Source: Rubrobacter sp. (GTDB taxonomy: Bacteria; Chloroflexota; Chloroflexia; Thermobaculales; Thermobaculaceae). From it: a stretch of 38,458 nucleotides of DNA. The stretch lies in NCBI GenBank assembly GCA_016781735.1, contig JADDPT010000121.1, positions 1 to 38,458 of the forward strand, given 5' to 3'. A program made the translations under genes and the position numbers. Shown here piece after piece: positions 9,171 through 17,450 of this stretch. The notes under the pieces are model-generated. The model was not told the DNA's origin. It saw nothing but the letters and a program-made list of their open reading frames with translations, and made no database searches. Each line of letters opens with the position of its first letter. Positions within the stretch are counted from its first letter, which is position 1.

Positions 9171-10014
9171 CCCAGAGCACACCGAGGAGGAATATCCGAC
9201 GCTCAGGGTAACGTGTCTTGCCAGCGGCAGTTCAGGCAACTCCATCCTAGTTGAGTACAACCACCGCGCTATCCTCGTGGACGCTGGTCTTTCCACTCGT
9301 AAGCTGCTAGCCCTGCTCGGCGAGCGCGGCTTGCGTCCAGGTTCTCTCGACGGCATCTTGCTCACACACGAGCATACGGATCACACTCGCGGTGCCGAAG
9401 GGGCCGCGGTCCGTATGGAAGCCCCGCTTGTGGGGAATCCACCTACCTTGGACCGCGTGTGTCTGACGGGCCGCGCGGTCCAGCAGGTCCGCTTCAGTAC
9501 AGGCGAGCCGGTAACGCTGGGAAGTTTCGAGGTAAGCTCCGTTCCGGTAAGCCACGACGCGGCGTCACCGGTTGGTTATCTGGTAGACACTGGGGACATG
9601 CGGGTCGCGGTGCTTACAGATCTCGGCAGCGTCACGCCCGAGCTTATCGAGCCGGTCTCGAGCGCGGATCTGGTCGTACTTGAGGCCAACCACGAGACCC
9701 GTCGCCTCATCGAAGGTCCGTATCCTCAGCACCTCAAGCGGAGGATTCTCAGTGACCGAGGCCACCTCTCCAACAGGCAGTCCGCTGAGCTTATCGGTAT
9801 GGTGCTTCGCAGCCGTCCTCAGACCTTCTGGCTCGCGCATCTCTCCCGCACGAACAACACAAAGCGAGAGGCCCGGAGCGGCGTGCTGAGGTATCTCGCG
9901 GGCGAGGGAGTCGCGCCTGAGGTGCTCATTACTGACCGCGACCGCCCCAGCCTCGTCTGGGAGCCGCCATCCGACGACGTTCAGCTGTCGTTGCTCGGTT
10001 CTATGAGTCGCTGA
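9160..10014 (+). CDS. metallo-beta-lactamase fold hydrolase, YycJ/WalJ-like
   Basis: Metal-dependent hydrolase of the YycJ/WalJ group, thought to act on nucleic acid in some bacteria. Visible features are VTCLASGSSGNSILVE, ILVDAGLSTRKLLALLGERG, the metal motif LLTHEHTDHTRG, VPVSHDAASPVGYLVD, AVLTDLGSV and LVVLEANHE, then LSNRQSAELI and WLAHLSRTNNT. The only ATG/GTG/TTG in frame is GTG 9160, used here as the outer limit; it has no ribosome binding site and the -10 box of a strong promoter lies inside the first codons. GAGGAGG at 9184-9190 is spaced 8 bases from an in-frame ACG at 9199 and 11 from CTC at 9202, matching the place where homologs begin. So the true protein may start at about 9199 with an unusual codon, or a base is wrong here. 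The 3' end overlaps fmt by 34 bases, tail to tail. Confidence 0.88.
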   Translation: MCIVPEHTEEEYPTLRVTCLASGSSGNSILVEYNHRAILVDAGLSTRKLLALLGERGLRPGSLDGILLTHEHTDHTRGAEGAAVRMEAPLVGNPPTLDRVCLTGRAVQQVRFSTGEPVTLGSFEVSSVPVSHDAASPVGYLVDTGDMRVAVLTDLGSVTPELIEPVSSADLVVLEANHETRRLIEGPYPQHLKRRILSDRGHLSNRQSAELIGMVLRSRPQTFWLAHLSRTNNTKREARSGVLRYLAGEGVAPEVLITDRDRPSLVWEPPSDDVQLSLLGSMSR

Positions 10015-10967
10015 GGCCCGAGGACCGCACCCCGCAGATCCGGCCGTCCCAAAAGGAACGTCTTTGCTGCCATAGGTTTGCCTCCGGCCAGTTGCACCTC
10101 CCTCAGCAGAAGCGCGCCCTCGCCACAACCCACGAGCGGGAGGCCGGAGGCGTCCTGAACGCCTACCTCACCAATCCCTAGGTGGCGCTCGTTCTTCAGC
10201 CTCTCGGCTCTCAGCACCCGTAGTTGCCGTTCGTTCCAAAACGTGTGCGACACGGGCCAGGGATTGTACGCCCTGACCTCGCGTTCGAGCAGCTCGGCTG
10301 GTTTCGACCAGTCGAGTAAAGCGCTCTCCTTCGACAGCCTCGGCGCGTACGAAGCGCGGTCGTGCTCCTGCTCCTGTTCTACCGCCCGCCCCTCCGCCAT
10401 AGCCGCCAGGGTTGGAGGTAGCATGCGCGCTCCGACCTGTGCCAGCCTGCTTGTCAACTCTCCAGCCGTCTCGTGCCGGCCGATAGCTACCTTCTCCTGA
10501 GCGAGCACGGGTCCGTCGTCGAGTCCCACGCCCATCTTGAAAAGTGATACGCCCGTCTCCTCATCACCCGCGAGGATAGGGGCGACGACGGGCGACGCCC
10601 CCCGGTATCGCGGCAGCAGAGACGGGTGTACGTTTATCCACCCAAGGGGAGGGATCTCGAGGGCCGGCCTCGGGATCAACAGGCCGTACGCCGCGAGCAC
10701 GACCACGTCCGAAGCATAGGCGCGAAGCGTGCCGAGCACCGAATCCTCGCGGATCTTCTCCGGCTGCTCAAGGCGGAGTCCCAGATTCCGCGCTGCTGTG
10801 GCGACAGGTGAAGCATGAAGCGTCCGTCCTCGGCCCGCCGGTCGGTCCGGCTGGGTGTATACGGCTCTTACGTCGTACCCGCTGTCCAGCAGCACGCGCA
10901 GCACCGGCACGGAGAAGTCCGAGGAGCCGAAGAAGATGGCGGAGAGGGGGGAGGCCATGAGCGCCAT
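9981..10967 (-). CDS. fmt: methionyl-tRNA formyltransferase
   Basis: Formylates the amino group of initiator Met-tRNA using 10-formyl-tetrahydrofolate. The N-domain begins IFFGSSDFSVPVLRVLL. The catalytic and folate-binding region holds INVHPSLLPRYRGASPVVAPILAGDEETGV with Asn and His, and GLDDGPVLAQ. A C-terminal tRNA-binding OB domain follows (VRAYNPWPVSHTFW onward). The start is ATG 10967 (or ATG 10958); the reading frame extends further upstream without homology. At 328 residues it is slightly longer than average. The gap to the divergent YYY gene is only 17 bases, so each gene's promoter must lie partly in the other. The stop lies inside the end of the YycJ-like gene. Confidence 0.94.
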   Translation of the reverse strand: MALMASPLSAIFFGSSDFSVPVLRVLLDSGYDVRAVYTQPDRPAGRGRTLHASPVATAARNLGLRLEQPEKIREDSVLGTLRAYASDVVVLAAYGLLIPRPALEIPPLGWINVHPSLLPRYRGASPVVAPILAGDEETGVSLFKMGVGLDDGPVLAQEKVAIGRHETAGELTSRLAQVGARMLPPTLAAMAEGRAVEQEQEHDRASYAPRLSKESALLDWSKPAELLEREVRAYNPWPVSHTFWNERQLRVLRAERLKNERHLGIGEVGVQDASGLPLVGCGEGALLLREVQLAGGKPMAAKTFLLGRPDLRGAVLGPQRLIEPSNDS

Positions 10968-10975
10968 GCTACAAT
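10967..10975 (+). promoter_or_regulatory. extended -10 element of the YYY gene pair
   Basis: TGCTACAAT forms an extended -10 (TGnTACAAT). No -35 box is seen, as expected for this class. Transcription would begin near 10982, only about three bases before the ATG at 10985, so the transcript should be nearly leaderless. It also overlaps the start codon of the divergent fmt gene. Confidence 0.5.
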
Positions 10976-10984
10976 GGCGCAGAT

Positions 10985-13900
10985 ATGCTTGTACAGCCTC
11001 GCCCCGCGGCCGGGCGTTCCCAGCCCCTCTCCACGTTCTCCCTCTCACTGCTGGTTTTGATAACGCTCGTGGCGCTCGTTCCGCGGCTGTTCGACCAGAA
11101 CTGGGACGGAGGCCATTACGCGCATCCCGACGAGTTACACATCGTTCAGGTGGCGTCCGAGCGGCTGTCCTGGCCCTCGGAAATTTCCGGTCTACTTCCG
11201 GCCGACAGCAGTCCGATGAACCCGCGCCGGCTTGAGGATGGCAACAGACTTAGCTACTCTTACGGATCGCTGCTCGTCTACGGCCTGAAAGCGCTGTCGA
11301 GCGTGGTTGCAGTGCTAACCGGTGAGCCCGCCTACGCTTCGTTTGACCGCATCTACCGGGTAGGACGCCCGGTCTCCGCACTTGCGGACGTCGGGACGGT
11401 TCTCGCGCTCTTCGCCCTCGGCCGTCGCCTCTTCGACACGCATGTGGGTCTGCTCGCGGCGGCGTTCTCGGCGCTGACCGTGCTGCAGGTCCAGTACAGC
11501 CACTACTACGTGGCCGAGCCGCTCATGACGCTGTTTCTCACCCTGGCGCTGCTCTACGTGGTGCGTTCTCTCCAGACGGGTGCGCGCGGTTCGGCCCTGG
11601 CTGCCGGCCTGTTTATGGGCCTAGCGGTCGCCACCAAGCCGAGTGCGGCGGCATTCGCCACGGCGGGGCTACTTATCCTGGCGTTTGGCGGTGCTGTTGC
11701 GCGTTCGGACTCGAACGCTTCATCGCATCGAACGCTCCTAATAGGAGCGCGTCACGGCCTCCAACTCTGTCTGTTGGCGGGCCTTGCCGCTTTGCTCGCC
11801 TGGGCCGTGTGGGAGCCGTATGTGGTTGCCAACTTCGCTGCATACCTCGACAACATTCGGAGCGAGAGCCGCATACAGGCCGGCGACATCGACCTGCCGT
11901 ACACGCGCCAGTACATCGGGACCGTGCCGGTGTGGTATCACTTCAGCCAGTACGTCCGGTGGGGTGTGGGCCTTCCCTTAGGCATAGCGGTGCTCGCGGG
12001 TCTCAGCTGGGGTATGGCCAGAGCGACGCGCCGTGACACTCGCGTGCTGGTACTACTGGCGTGGATCACCCCTTACATGCTCTGCGTGCTGACGCTGGAG
12101 GCGAAGTGGCTGCGCTACATGCTGCCGGTAACGCCGGTGCTCCTGCTCCTCGCGTCGGCGGCACTGTGGGGCTTGCTCGATCGGCTGCGGGCCGTCGCTG
12201 GCACGGGCTCGTACGTCCGCGCACGGATCGGATATCTTGCCATGGCGGCGGTGCTCGTCGGCTCTGCGCTGTGGGTCGCTGCCTTTGCGCGGATCTACAC
12301 GCGACCCCACACCTGGGTCCAGGCATCGGAGTGGATGTACGCCAACATCCCGAGTGGCGCTTCCATAGGTGTCGAGCACTGGGATCGTGAGCTGCCGCTC
12401 AATCTACCCGGTCGCTCCGGTGGAGATTACGAACGCGTATCTATCGAGATGTATGATGACCTGGCGCCGTCCGAGAAATTGCTGCAGGTAGAGCAGGCTC
12501 TCGCCTCATCCGATTACATCGTGCTGGCGAGCAATCGGCTATACGGTTCCATCCCGCGTTCCCCATGGCGCTATGCGGTGGCGACACGCTACTACGAGCT
12601 GCTCTTCGAGGAGCGGCTAGGCTTTCGCAAGGTAGCGAGTTTCGTCGAGAGTCCCGGTCTCGGTTCGCGGCGGGTAAGCGAGACGAGCGCGGACGAGAGC
12701 TTTTCCGTGTACGACCACCCCCCGGTGACCATTTTCCGCAAGGAGCGCAACGTCGCATCCTGGGAGCTGCAGGCCCTCTTCGCGGATGCCGTAGAGGCGC
12801 CCTGGGTGGCGGAGCGCCATGGCGAGGCAGATAAGTCCCTGCTGTTAACGCCGCTGCGCCAGGGCTACGAGAGGGCGCTGCCGTACTTTAGCGGCTCGTT
12901 CACCGGTGCGGCGGCGGTGGCGAGCTGGCTGCTCGTACTCGAGCTACTCGGCCTGGCCACATGGATCCTGCTTCTCCCTATACTTTCGGGGTTGCCCGAT
13001 AGAGGCTGGGTTCTCAGCAAGCTTATCGGTGTGCTTGCCACGGCCTGGTTTGTGTGGTGGGCAGCGTCCCTCGAAATGTTGCCCGCTACTCCAGGTGTCG
13101 CCCGAACCAATGCCTTGATCCTTGTGTGCGCGGCTCTCGCGACTTCGCTGGCCCGCAGACGAGCGGTCCGAAGGGATCTCGGTTCCGCCTGGCGTGCCAT
13201 GCTCGGCTTCGAGCTGCTGTTCTTGGGACTCTTCGCGGCTGGAGCGCTGCTGCGAGCGGCAAATCCGGACCTTTGGCACCCGATCTTCGGCGGCGAGAAG
13301 CCTATGGAACTTGCTTTCCTGAACGGCGTGCTACGTAGCTCACGGCTTCCACCATACGACCCTTGGTACTCCGGAGGGTACATCAACTACTACTACTTCG
13401 GGCAGTGGCTCGCCGCGCATCTGATGCGTCTCGCCTCCGTGGGACCGCAGTACGGATTCTCGCTAGCTGTCGCGACGGTCTGGGCCTGGACCGGCACGCT
13501 TTCAGCCGCAATCGGGTACACTCTCGCCCGGCAGTGGGGACGTGGTGCGGCAGGAGTTGTCGGAGGGCTCTCCCTGCTGTTCGTGCTGCTGGTCGGCAAC
13601 CTTGACGGCGGCGTACAGCTCATTCAGTCGATGCGAGACGACGGTGTGGCGGAGTTATGGAGGACGTTCGACTTCTGGCGGAGCACCAGACTGGAAGGCG
13701 CGTTCTTCATCCACGAGTTTCCGTTCTTTACTTTCCTGTATGGAGACCTCCACGCCCACATGATCGCCATGCCGCTCGGGCTCGCCCTCGTGCTGCTGGG
13801 CGCGTTCCTGGTTGCTCGTAGAGAACTAGTGTCAGCGCGGGATACGATCGTCGTCTCCGTACTGGGTGGTTTGCTAGCCGGTGCGTTGGTCGTAACCAAC

Positions 13901-15220
13901 CCCTGGGACGTGCCCGCCTATACGGGCCTATTCGCCCTCGCGACAACTTTGTATTGGGCGTGCAGTGGTGACACGCTCCGCAGGCGCGCCACGGGCGCAC
14001 TCGCATCGCTCGGCATCGTCGCATTGGTTGCGGGCATCGGCTACTTCCCGTTCTTTAGGTCCTTCAAGAGCTTCTACGGGGAGATCGGGTTGGTGACCAC
14101 GCCGACGCGGCCCACAATCTACCTCAACATGCTGGGACTGTTCCTCTTTCTGGCAGGCTGGCACGCCGTCACCCGAGCCTGGCACGCCGGACCGCGAGCC
14201 CGAGCTGCGACCCTCGGACTGCCGCTACTGCTCGCGGCGGCAGTGCTACTCAGAGGATCGGAGCAGTGGGTACTCGTCCTGCTCCTCTCGTTGCTCTCGT
14301 GGCTGCTCCTCGCCGCCTGGCATGACCGGCGATCCGCGCCGGCGCTGGTCTGGACTGGGCTGGCGGCCGGCGGAACGCTGATATGGGCCGGGATCGAGGT
14401 GCTCTATCTCAAAGACTTTCTCGAAGGCAGCGACTGGTACAGGCAGAACACAATCTTCAAGTTCGGCCTGCAGAGCTGGCTGCTTCTCGCCCTCGGTTGC
14501 GCGGGGCTGCTTTACCTGAGTCTAAGCGGGGCTCGTTCGCGGTTGGCTCGACTCGGGCCCATGGCTATCGTTACGGTCCTGGTCGCCGCATCGCTCGTGT
14601 ATCCGGTGTACGGCACCGCGGCACGCGTGCGATATCGGTTTCCGGAGCCGCCCACCGGCGCCACCCTCGACGGCGAGGCGTACATGAGGACGGCAACTCT
14701 TCAGAACGAGTCTGGGCGCGTCGAGCGGTATGGGGACGATTACGAGGCCATCCTGTGGATGCGGGAGAACATAAGAGAACCTGCCACTATCGTGGAGGCG
14801 GGCATAGGACCGTATCGTGGGAACGGTGGCCGGATCAGCGCCTTCACCGGCCTGCCCGCGGTCGTCGGCTGGGACAACCACGAGTCGCAGCAACGTTACC
14901 CTGAGCCGGTGGCACGCCGCAACGCCGATGTGCGCGACCTCTACAACTCGCCGAGCCCACGCCGGGCGCTGGAGGTGGTCCTGAGATACGACGTGAGATA
15001 TATCTACGTGGGGCCCGTGGAGCGCTTACACGAGTTCGGCGATGCCTCCAACGTTGAGCCCTACGGGTCTCGACGCGGCCTGGCGAAGTTTGACCGGATG
15101 GCGCGGGAGGGCGTCCTCGACGTGGCGTACTCAAACAGAGGCGTCACCGTGTATGAGGTGCCGCCTACCTGGCGCTGGTCAGCGGATCGCCTAGTACACT
15201 TCGCGGGTGCCGATGGCTGA
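10985..15220 (+). CDS. giant membrane protein: GT39-like N-half fused to a YYY (DUF2298) domain
   Basis: This 1411-residue multi-pass membrane protein has two halves. The first (about 1-560) looks like a GT-C glycosyltransferase of the PMT/ArnT type: an early HPDELH motif (about residue 47) after the first hydrophobic helix, then many hydrophobic segments including VLQVQYSHYYVAEPLMTLF and GLAVATKPSAAAFA. The second (about 640-1411) is the Chlor_Arch_YYY domain: FGGEKPMELAFLN, YDPWYSGGYINYYYFGQW (about 793-810), FFTFLYGDLHAHMIAMPLG (about 920), VTNPWDVPAY, NTIFKFGLQSWLLLALG and GRISAFTGLPAVVGWDNHE near the C-terminus. By analogy these proteins may move sugars from lipid carriers outside the membrane, but no substrate is known. 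The start is ATG 10985 right after an extended -10 box. The stop overlaps the start of a second YYY gene. Confidence 0.85.
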   Translation: MLVQPRPAAGRSQPLSTFSLSLLVLITLVALVPRLFDQNWDGGHYAHPDELHIVQVASERLSWPSEISGLLPADSSPMNPRRLEDGNRLSYSYGSLLVYGLKALSSVVAVLTGEPAYASFDRIYRVGRPVSALADVGTVLALFALGRRLFDTHVGLLAAAFSALTVLQVQYSHYYVAEPLMTLFLTLALLYVVRSLQTGARGSALAAGLFMGLAVATKPSAAAFATAGLLILAFGGAVARSDSNASSHRTLLIGARHGLQLCLLAGLAALLAWAVWEPYVVANFAAYLDNIRSESRIQAGDIDLPYTRQYIGTVPVWYHFSQYVRWGVGLPLGIAVLAGLSWGMARATRRDTRVLVLLAWITPYMLCVLTLEAKWLRYMLPVTPVLLLLASAALWGLLDRLRAVAGTGSYVRARIGYLAMAAVLVGSALWVAAFARIYTRPHTWVQASEWMYANIPSGASIGVEHWDRELPLNLPGRSGGDYERVSIEMYDDLAPSEKLLQVEQALASSDYIVLASNRLYGSIPRSPWRYAVATRYYELLFEERLGFRKVASFVESPGLGSRRVSETSADESFSVYDHPPVTIFRKERNVASWELQALFADAVEAPWVAERHGEADKSLLLTPLRQGYERALPYFSGSFTGAAAVASWLLVLELLGLATWILLLPILSGLPDRGWVLSKLIGVLATAWFVWWAASLEMLPATPGVARTNALILVCAALATSLARRRAVRRDLGSAWRAMLGFELLFLGLFAAGALLRAANPDLWHPIFGGEKPMELAFLNGVLRSSRLPPYDPWYSGGYINYYYFGQWLAAHLMRLASVGPQYGFSLAVATVWAWTGTLSAAIGYTLARQWGRGAAGVVGGLSLLFVLLVGNLDGGVQLIQSMRDDGVAELWRTFDFWRSTRLEGAFFIHEFPFFTFLYGDLHAHMIAMPLGLALVLLGAFLVARRELVSARDTIVVSVLGGLLAGALVVTNPWDVPAYTGLFALATTLYWACSGDTLRRRATGALASLGIVALVAGIGYFPFFRSFKSFYGEIGLVTTPTRPTIYLNMLGLFLFLAGWHAVTRAWHAGPRARAATLGLPLLLAAAVLLRGSEQWVLVLLLSLLSWLLLAAWHDRRSAPALVWTGLAAGGTLIWAGIEVLYLKDFLEGSDWYRQNTIFKFGLQSWLLLALGCAGLLYLSLSGARSRLARLGPMAIVTVLVAASLVYPVYGTAARVRYRFPEPPTGATLDGEAYMRTATLQNESGRVERYGDDYEAILWMRENIREPATIVEAGIGPYRGNGGRISAFTGLPAVVGWDNHESQQRYPEPVARRNADVRDLYNSPSPRRALEVVLRYDVRYIYVGPVERLHEFGDASNVEPYGSRRGLAKFDRMAREGVLDVAYSNRGVTVYEVPPTWRWSADRLVHFAGADG

Positions 15221-17450
15221 GGCGCTGCGGTGGTGGCTGACTCTCTCATTGCTCGGTCTCCTCTCGCTGCCGCTCACCGGACTAGCCTTCCGTTCCCTGC
15301 CCGATCGAGGCTACACGCTCTCCCGAGCGCTGGGCTGGACGCTGTCCAGCTGGCTCGCCTGGCTTGGCGCGGCAACGGGCTTAGTGGAGTTCGGCACATC
15401 GTCCTCCTACCTCGCAGCGGCCGTGCTAGGGCTGGCCTCAGCCGCGGCACTCCTCCTCCACAGAGGAGGCTACGGACGTGCGTGGCGGGCATTCTTCAAC
15501 GAGCGATGGATCCACGTGCTCTCGGTGGAAGCGGCCTTCAGTGTAGCGTTCGCCGCCCTAGTGCTACTGCGGGCTTTCATCCCTCACGCGTCACAGACTG
15601 AGAAGCCCATGGAGTATATGCTGCTCCAGAGCACCTACTCCGCCGCCACTATGCCACCACCGGACCTGTGGCTCGCTGGTGAGCGTGTCAATTACTACTA
15701 CTTCGGTTTCTTCATGAACGCCTTTGTGGCGCGGCTGTCCGGTGTCGAGCCGCCGATTGCCTTCAACCTGGCGCTCGCGGGCGTCTGGGCTGTGACCGCC
15801 GTCACCATAGGAGGGCTGGCTTACAACGCCGTGTCCGCGGGAACAACCGCCGGGCTGCCCCGTGTTCTCGCGGCAACCTCCGCGCCGGTCCTCGTGCTGC
15901 TGATGGGCAATCCAGCGGCACTCGAGGAGGTAGCGCGGCGGTTGAGCAGTCCCGATGTCTTCGACTGGTTTGGAGCGTCTACCCGCGTGATCTACGACCA
16001 GATCCCTGGACGTGGCCGCGTGGAGACCATCAACGAGTTCCCGGCGTTCAGCTTCCTGCTGGGGGACCTGCATCCCCACGTGCTCGCCATGCCGCTGTTT
16101 GGTCTGGGTCTTGGTTGCTCGCTGGCTCTGCTGCTATCCGCCGCGCGCCCGGTCCCCCAGTTCGCGGTTACCTCCGCGGTGGCCGGTGCGGTCTGCGGCT
16201 GGCTCTATATGTCAAACTCCTGGGACGTGCCGGTGATCGCGTCGGTGACCGTCGTAGCCTCACTGCTCGGATCCTGCGGCAACTGCCGCCACCTGCGGTA
16301 TCACCGTGCCGTCGTGGCCCTCGCGCTCATCGTGGTCCTCGGGACTGTTGTCGCTCTGCCCTTCGCGAGCCGGTTTGATGCGCCGGTCTCTGCTTCCGCG
16401 GAGATCCCTCCAAACATCGCGTCGCTACCGGTTGCAGCCTCGCTCGGCAAGGTAGTGGGGCCGGTGTGGTGGGACCGCTCGGAGGTCGGCGAGTTTCTCA
16501 GGGTCTGGGGGATCCAGCTGGCTATCGTTGTCGTCTCGCTCTTCGTTCTCGTCCTCGGCTCCAGCCGTAGCGTGTGGCGTTGGCCCGTGCTGGTGACGCT
16601 CCTGGCAGTTTCACTGGCGCTTGCCTTATCGGCCCCTGTGCTGCTCCTTGTGCCGGTCGTGGTGCTTTGCTGGCTCCTGGCAATCAACGCACAGATCGTC
16701 ACCCTCAGATGGGGGTATGCTCTCACCGCCATGGGACTGGGGCTCATCGTTCTGCCGGAGCTGCTCTACCTCCGGGACGTCTTCGAGAACAGGATGAACA
16801 CCGTGTTCAAGGTCTACTACCAGGCCTGGCAGTTGCTGGGTATCTCTGCCGTGTTGCTGCTTCTCGCGGCCGTGGAGCGCCTGCGGCTCACGGTGCGCGG
16901 TCGGATCGTCATCAGGCCGGGTATTGCCCTCCTCCCTCTACTCCTCGTGCTGGCGCTCGCGTATCCGTACGCCGGGGTTCGCGCGCGCGCGGGCGGAGAC
17001 GTGAAGGGACTGGATGCGACCGCTTTCCTTCAGGAGGAGGACCCAGGCGCCGCGCTAGCGGTGGAATGGCTACGATGGCACTCAGCCCCTGAAGATGGTG
17101 TCCTGGAGGCTACCGGCGGCCCGTACAGCCTGTACGGCCGAGTCAGTACCTACGCCGGCCGCCCGACGGTGCTTGGCTGGGCTAACCACGAGCGTCAATG
17201 GCGCGCTGGTCAGCCGGAACTGCTCGACGCGTTGAGCGAGAGGGAGCGTCTTGTCACGGAGGCATACACTTCCTCGAATCGCGGTCCCGATATCGCCGCG
17301 CTCCAGCGGCTCGACGTTCGCTATGCGTACTATGGTCGCCTCGAGCGCGAGATGCAGCGGGAGCAGGGGCTGCCGGTGCGCGACCCATTCGCCGGCCACC
17401 TGCAAAGGGTGTGGAGCTCTGATGAAGGCGCCCTGTACGAAGTGCGGTAG
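15207..17450 (+). CDS. YYY (DUF2298) domain membrane protein
   Basis: A 747-residue multi-pass membrane protein that corresponds to the second half of its upstream neighbour. The same ordered motifs recur: HASQTEKPMEYMLLQ, PPPDLWLAGERVNYYYFGFF (about 150-170), FPAFSFLLGDLHPHVLAMP (about 278-296), MSNSWDVPVI, NTVFKVYYQAWQLLG and GRVSTYAGRPTVLGWANHE. This indicates a tandem duplication of the YYY unit, after which the first copy gained, or the second lost, the GT39-like half. GTG 15207 or ATG 15213 are possible starts; both overlap the upstream stop (15218-15220), so the two proteins are translationally coupled and may act together. A probable glycosyltransferase-like role is inference from the GT-C-like layout. 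No ribosome binding site is obvious, as expected for coupling. Confidence 0.87.
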   Translation: MPMAEALRWWLTLSLLGLLSLPLTGLAFRSLPDRGYTLSRALGWTLSSWLAWLGAATGLVEFGTSSSYLAAAVLGLASAAALLLHRGGYGRAWRAFFNERWIHVLSVEAAFSVAFAALVLLRAFIPHASQTEKPMEYMLLQSTYSAATMPPPDLWLAGERVNYYYFGFFMNAFVARLSGVEPPIAFNLALAGVWAVTAVTIGGLAYNAVSAGTTAGLPRVLAATSAPVLVLLMGNPAALEEVARRLSSPDVFDWFGASTRVIYDQIPGRGRVETINEFPAFSFLLGDLHPHVLAMPLFGLGLGCSLALLLSAARPVPQFAVTSAVAGAVCGWLYMSNSWDVPVIASVTVVASLLGSCGNCRHLRYHRAVVALALIVVLGTVVALPFASRFDAPVSASAEIPPNIASLPVAASLGKVVGPVWWDRSEVGEFLRVWGIQLAIVVVSLFVLVLGSSRSVWRWPVLVTLLAVSLALALSAPVLLLVPVVVLCWLLAINAQIVTLRWGYALTAMGLGLIVLPELLYLRDVFENRMNTVFKVYYQAWQLLGISAVLLLLAAVERLRLTVRGRIVIRPGIALLPLLLVLALAYPYAGVRARAGGDVKGLDATAFLQEEDPGAALAVEWLRWHSAPEDGVLEATGGPYSLYGRVSTYAGRPTVLGWANHERQWRAGQPELLDALSERERLVTEAYTSSNRGPDIAALQRLDVRYAYYGRLEREMQREQGLPVRDPFAGHLQRVWSSDEGALYEVR

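Follow-up and report, generated by a model that had tools for sequence, protein, structure and literature searches.

Here we report that two adjacent genes in a 38,458-nucleotide stretch of a Rubrobacter sp. contig (the whole of which we call the window) encode membrane proteins that are probably GT-C glycosyltransferases, acting on polyprenyl-linked sugars at the outer face of the cytoplasmic membrane. The first, P1 (10985..15220, + strand), is a 1411-residue protein in which a predicted GT39-like GT-C module is fused to a predicted GT-C module of the YYY type (TIGR03662/DUF2298); the second, P2 (15207..17450, + strand; 747 residues when read from GTG 15207), consists of a single YYY unit. 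The window holds an ordinary member of an already described family, and its value is that of a functional lead rather than a surprise: the pair is long known, unstudied, and standard in most Chloroflexota and some archaea.

Both reading frames are intact, co-directional and overlapping. The listed GTG start of P2 at 15207 gives a 14-nt overlap with P1, and an alternative ATG at 15213 gives one of 8 nt; we take the ATG to be the likelier start because the same 8-nt overlap is found in four close relatives. On the - strand, a methionyl-tRNA formyltransferase-like ORF (9981-11048) overlaps the start of P1 in its longest version, but the conserved start, MASPLSAIFF, comes about 30 residues later, so that P1 would be divergent from it across a short gap. 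The genes for tRNA-Pro and tRNA-Gly lie directly 3' of P2, followed by holA. Within the window's own family the surroundings of the pair are unrelated housekeeping genes (fmt, tRNAs, holA and lepA) and local synteny revealed no sugar cluster around it, so the functional context is drawn from more distant relatives and from another contig of this genome.

Membership of both proteins in the YYY family is clear from the profile searches that the initial annotation had called for, all of which passed above curated cut-offs. Against TIGR03662 (Chlor_Arch_YYY; about 727 positions, curated cut-off 300.25 bits), the YYY unit of P1 (residues 644-1392; 12914..15160, + strand) scored 506.6 bits and P2 scored 468.2, both matches being near full length; PF10060 (DUF2298) gave 373.4 bits for P1 and 357.7 bits for P2 against a gathering cut-off of 27.8. 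The two units share 31% identity over 382 residues (E = 1e-34), and the six motifs first noticed in them (EKPME, NYYYFG, GDLHxH, NxWDVP, FKxxxQxW and GRxSxxxGxP) were all recovered, in the same order, in both proteins, which bears out the proposed duplication of the unit. Judged by sequence, these scores and the likeness of the two units are far above chance.

The additional half of P1 (residues 1-640; 10985..12904, + strand) had been described as glycosyltransferase-like, and can now be placed as a PMT/GT39-like GT-C module by its PMT_2 score, its alignment with the Agl23 profile and its structural model. PF13231 (PMT_2) matched residues 128-240 with 44.3 bits (gathering cut-off 26.1) and was found in 24 of 30 P1 homologues, and hhalign aligned the N-half with an Agl23 alignment at E 1.8e-14. 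Despite that profile alignment, membership of the N-half in TIGR03663/Agl23 itself was rejected, its score being 19.5 bits against a cut-off of 126.25. The N-half has an extracytoplasmic alpha/beta domain of its own, at about residues 443-605. Between the YYY and N-half profiles, the C-terminal extracytoplasmic domain alone aligned (E 7e-5, probability 62), and the YYY and Agl23 profiles gave no alignment with one another. Searches of the PDB with the P1 sequence and the P2 profile returned no relevant sequence-level match to solved GT-C structures, and the viral contigs searched held no relatives of either protein.

Structure prediction of each protein singly places both in the GT-C fold, the N-half of P1 included. 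The AlphaFold model of P2 (pLDDT 93.1, pTM 0.94) matched DPY19 (1.1e-6), AftA (6e-5), PglB (1e-3) and ArnT (4e-3) in the PDB, all of them GT-C proteins and all with probability 1.00, the whole-length TM-scores of the best matches being modest (0.34-0.54). The model of P1 residues 1-1200 has a pLDDT of 87 and a pTM of 0.57, so that the mutual placement of its halves is unsure; it matched AglB (3.7e-8), STT3/OST, ALG12 (5e-8), ALG9, PMT4, ArnT and Emb proteins. For both proteins, every structure match with probability 1.00 was a GT-C-type protein or a complex of such proteins.

Model helices, hydropathy and positive-inside counts of K and R over the alignments together suggest a consistent topology for the YYY unit, with about 16 transmembrane helices (the helix at 316-355 counted as two spans), three of which are extra N-terminal helices ahead of the GT-C core. 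The first outer loop would carry EKPM(D/E), directly after the first core transmembrane helix, together with D153xW155 and NYYYFG, and the second would carry EFP and GDLHxH; NxWDxP and RxNTxFK would lie at later outer ends, and P2 residues 596-747 would form a C-terminal outer domain. In coordinates (all + strand), EKPME is encoded at 13295..13309 in P1 (residues 771-775) and at 15600..15614 in P2 (132-136), and the loop-2 motif at 13742..13759 in P1 (GDLHAH, 920-925) and at 16062..16079 in P2 (GDLHPH, 286-291). The segment RMNTVFKVYYQAW (P2 529-541; 16791..16829) would occupy the outer end of the penultimate transmembrane helix. HPDELH, reported in the extra half of the first copy, is present in P1 only (11123..11140), where it would fall in outer loop 1 of the N-half, right after the first transmembrane helix (17-35). 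Every invariant motif is predicted to face the outer side, with neither EKPME nor HxH on the cytosolic side. Like other GT-C proteins, P1 and P2 would therefore have an acidic motif (HPDE or EKPM(D/E)) in outer loop 1, which follows the first core helix; in PglB and ArnT, two acidic motifs sit in these same first and second outer loops.

These residues are strongly conserved in both lineages. Among 70 P2-type homologues, E132, D153, W155, Y163, Y164, P279, W339, D524, R529, N531 and K535 are invariant, as are both histidines of GDLHPH (H289 and H291), and the same holds for EKPM, NYY, D921, H923, H925, R1153 and N1155 among 45 P1-type homologues. HPDE is kept in all 44 of the P1 homologues that cover its region. 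With motif residues that vary little or not at all, neither YYY copy looks degenerate. The initial annotation had read the paired acidic and His motifs as an active site; their conservation and their predicted position in outer loops 1 and 2 are consistent with this reading, in which the two motifs would share one pocket.

The pair proved to be widespread when it was looked for across Chloroflexota. In a phylum-wide sample of 301 genomes, 212 have matches to TIGR03662 and 193 have them above the cut-off, so that about two thirds have the family, as do all 41 of a closer set made up of the window genome and its 40 closest relatives searched. In most of the loci read, a P1 with the N-terminal extension precedes a single-unit P2, which usually overlaps it or lies within 100 nt, and in a minority P2 lies 1-3 kb from P1. 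In Herpetosiphon and its relatives two YYY units in P1 precede P2, the Herpetosiphon protein also having C-terminal TPRs, and the archaeal relatives (Methanoperedens and ANME-2) have single YYY units without the N-half. TIGR03662 is also found in two archaea open to genetic work, Haloferax volcanii and Methanosarcina acetivorans. Duplication and fusion are the usual state of the YYY family and are not special to this genome. The closest homologues of P1 and P2 are carried by contig JADDPP010000066.1, filed as Rubrobacter sp. LC5_2, probably under a wrong name. A local expansion of YYY genes was seen in one family (f8; genomes G309-G312 and G288), with 5 to 13 TIGR03662 matches per genome spread over several contigs, some of them split by inserts.

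A FastTree phylogeny of 217 YYY units, a single-method tree with some long branches, contains a branch with support 99 that separates all 73 P1-type units from all 53 P2-type units. The P1 side also holds most of the tandem units, and the units from archaea branch off close to the split. So clean a separation argues for a duplication before the radiation of the phylum, and on this evidence the YYY units of P1 and P2 appear to be ancient, co-inherited paralogous lineages. C-terminal additions are also recurrent in the YYY system, as NHL as well as TPR tails: a P1-type protein of Candidatus Binatia (L155:13333-18168) ends in NHL repeats, and in an Acidobacteria MAG a PMT-NHL gene (L135:4118-7198) lies between P2-type and P1-type genes.

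Outside the window's own family, gene neighbours connect the YYY genes with lipid-linked sugars, a link that had been proposed from the sequence. TIGR03663/Agl23 is the next gene downstream in 40 of the 124 YYY runs with enough sequence, confirmed by profile in 40 of 40. Genes for TIGR00374 flippase-like proteins, GT2 enzymes and an FAD-dependent oxidoreductase also recur in the neighbourhood. The last of these was seen as an amine-oxidase-like gene (PRK07233-type) near YYY and Agl23 in both archaea and Chloroflexota (L171:8005-9300 and L122:13881-15215). In ANME-type archaea the 5' end of the YYY gene overlaps with a GT2 gene of the lipid-phosphate-sugar synthase type. The present genome has an Agl23 cluster on another contig (C10; L175:4748-11369), in the order Agl23, a fusion of a PMT-type gene with NHL repeats, TIGR00374 and the undecaprenyl-diphosphatase UppP; in a complete relative (L176:9258-14909) the order is Agl23, a 507-residue ORF of no assigned family, TIGR00374 and UppP. 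Co-occurrence is strong as well, with a strong TIGR03663 match in about 190 of 198 genomes that have a strong YYY match and in 2 of 103 without one, figures that come from two phylum tables compared by eye and from genomes that are not independent. Outside Chloroflexota, TIGR03663 exceeds its cut-off in 10 of 11 YYY genomes, a set without a base-rate control.

Based on these observations, we propose that P1 and P2 provide three GT-C modules in two proteins and, working at the outer side of the cytoplasmic membrane, transfer sugars to a glycan or glycoconjugate that is a conserved part of the cell surface. The donors would most likely be polyprenyl-phosphate (or -diphosphate) carriers. In each YYY module the invariant Glu of EKPM in loop 1 and the DxHxH of loop 2 may be catalytic and metal- or phosphate-binding, in the manner of the two acidic motifs in PglB and in ArnT, and HPDE may be used likewise in the N-half. 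Since P1 and P2 appear to be ancient, co-maintained paralogues, they probably either act in steps that follow or complement each other or assemble into a heteromer. The literature searched contains no measured activity for any member of the YYY family.

The neighbouring Agl23 itself offers a counterpoint to a transferase function. The Agl23 of H. hispanica is described as a putative hexose-P-dolichol flippase, which complements yeast rft1-delta and moved lipid-linked oligosaccharide in vitro in proteoliposomes (PMC11182771), so likeness to GT-C does not by itself make a protein a transferase. The YYY proteins could by analogy be translocases of polyprenyl-linked sugars, as claimed for Agl23, and their strong co-occurrence and adjacency with TIGR03663 would fit such a role; we nevertheless consider it unlikely, as both copies keep invariant acidic and His motifs at the loops where catalytic residues canonically sit in GT-C enzymes, as an enzyme would, and the large extracytoplasmic C-terminal domain also carries invariant residues.

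Among enzymatic functions, one module alone might be catalytic while the others serve as scaffold or in acceptor binding, as in some heteromeric GT-C enzymes. Such a division of labour would suit ancient paralogues retained side by side, but in a scaffold one would expect such motifs to be lost, and the retention of HPDE in the N-half and of EKPM and DLHxH in both YYY units makes it quite improbable. Less probable still is an oligosaccharyltransferase-like pair that would move a complete lipid-linked glycan onto protein. P1 has its best fold matches in the PDB with AglB and OST, and there is a weak STT3 profile match, but that match scores 16.2 bits against a cut-off of 450, WWDYG is absent from both proteins, and the sole WWD (P2 421-423) belongs to a loop of the membrane part that shows little conservation, outside the C-terminal domain. 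Membership in the STT3/AglB/PglB family was rejected on the score and the missing motif. Transfer of polyprenyl-linked sugars by GT-C modules in both proteins is the function that we favour.

More speculatively, P1, P2 and the Agl23 cluster (Agl23, the second PMT-type gene, the TIGR00374 flippase-like gene and UppP) could belong to a single, so far undescribed pathway of extracytoplasmic glycan assembly that is widespread among Chloroflexota, occurs in ANME archaea too and includes a three-module GT-C heteromer. We offer this as a tentative idea whose correctness is doubtful. The surface glycans of Chloroflexota are little known, and about two thirds of the genomes sampled there carry the YYY family. 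Its placement among GT-C proteins, its two ancient and separately kept paralogues, their intact putative active sites and their ties to Agl23, GT2 lipid-sugar synthases and UppP turn a domain of undefined function, named merely in passing in the literature searched, into a testable pathway.

Compared with known systems, both YYY units belong to TIGR03662 (PF10060), and the multi-copy architecture of the family has already been described by NCBI, whose TIGR03662 text covers single-copy proteins as well as proteins with an N-terminal region, two copies and TPRs, in Chloroflexi and archaea. Our additions are its structural place, its history as two lineages and its link to a pathway: a family without a defined function is now tied to the GT-C fold, to an ancient pair of paralogues and to an Agl23-linked setting. 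TIGR03663/Agl23 resembles the pair in being GT39-like, in co-occurring with it, often as the next gene, and in aligning by profile with the P1 N-half, and differs in that this half falls below its cut-off and its profile gives no alignment with the YYY units. Relative to oligosaccharyltransferases the YYY proteins lack WWDYG. With the GT-C enzymes at large (PglB/AglB/STT3, ArnT, PMT, DPY19, AftA and ALG12), the YYY proteins share the predicted fold, the loop-1 and loop-2 motifs and an extracytoplasmic C-terminal domain, and they are set apart by a sequence with no detectable match to those enzymes, by three more N-terminal transmembrane helices and by their DxHxH motif in loop 2.
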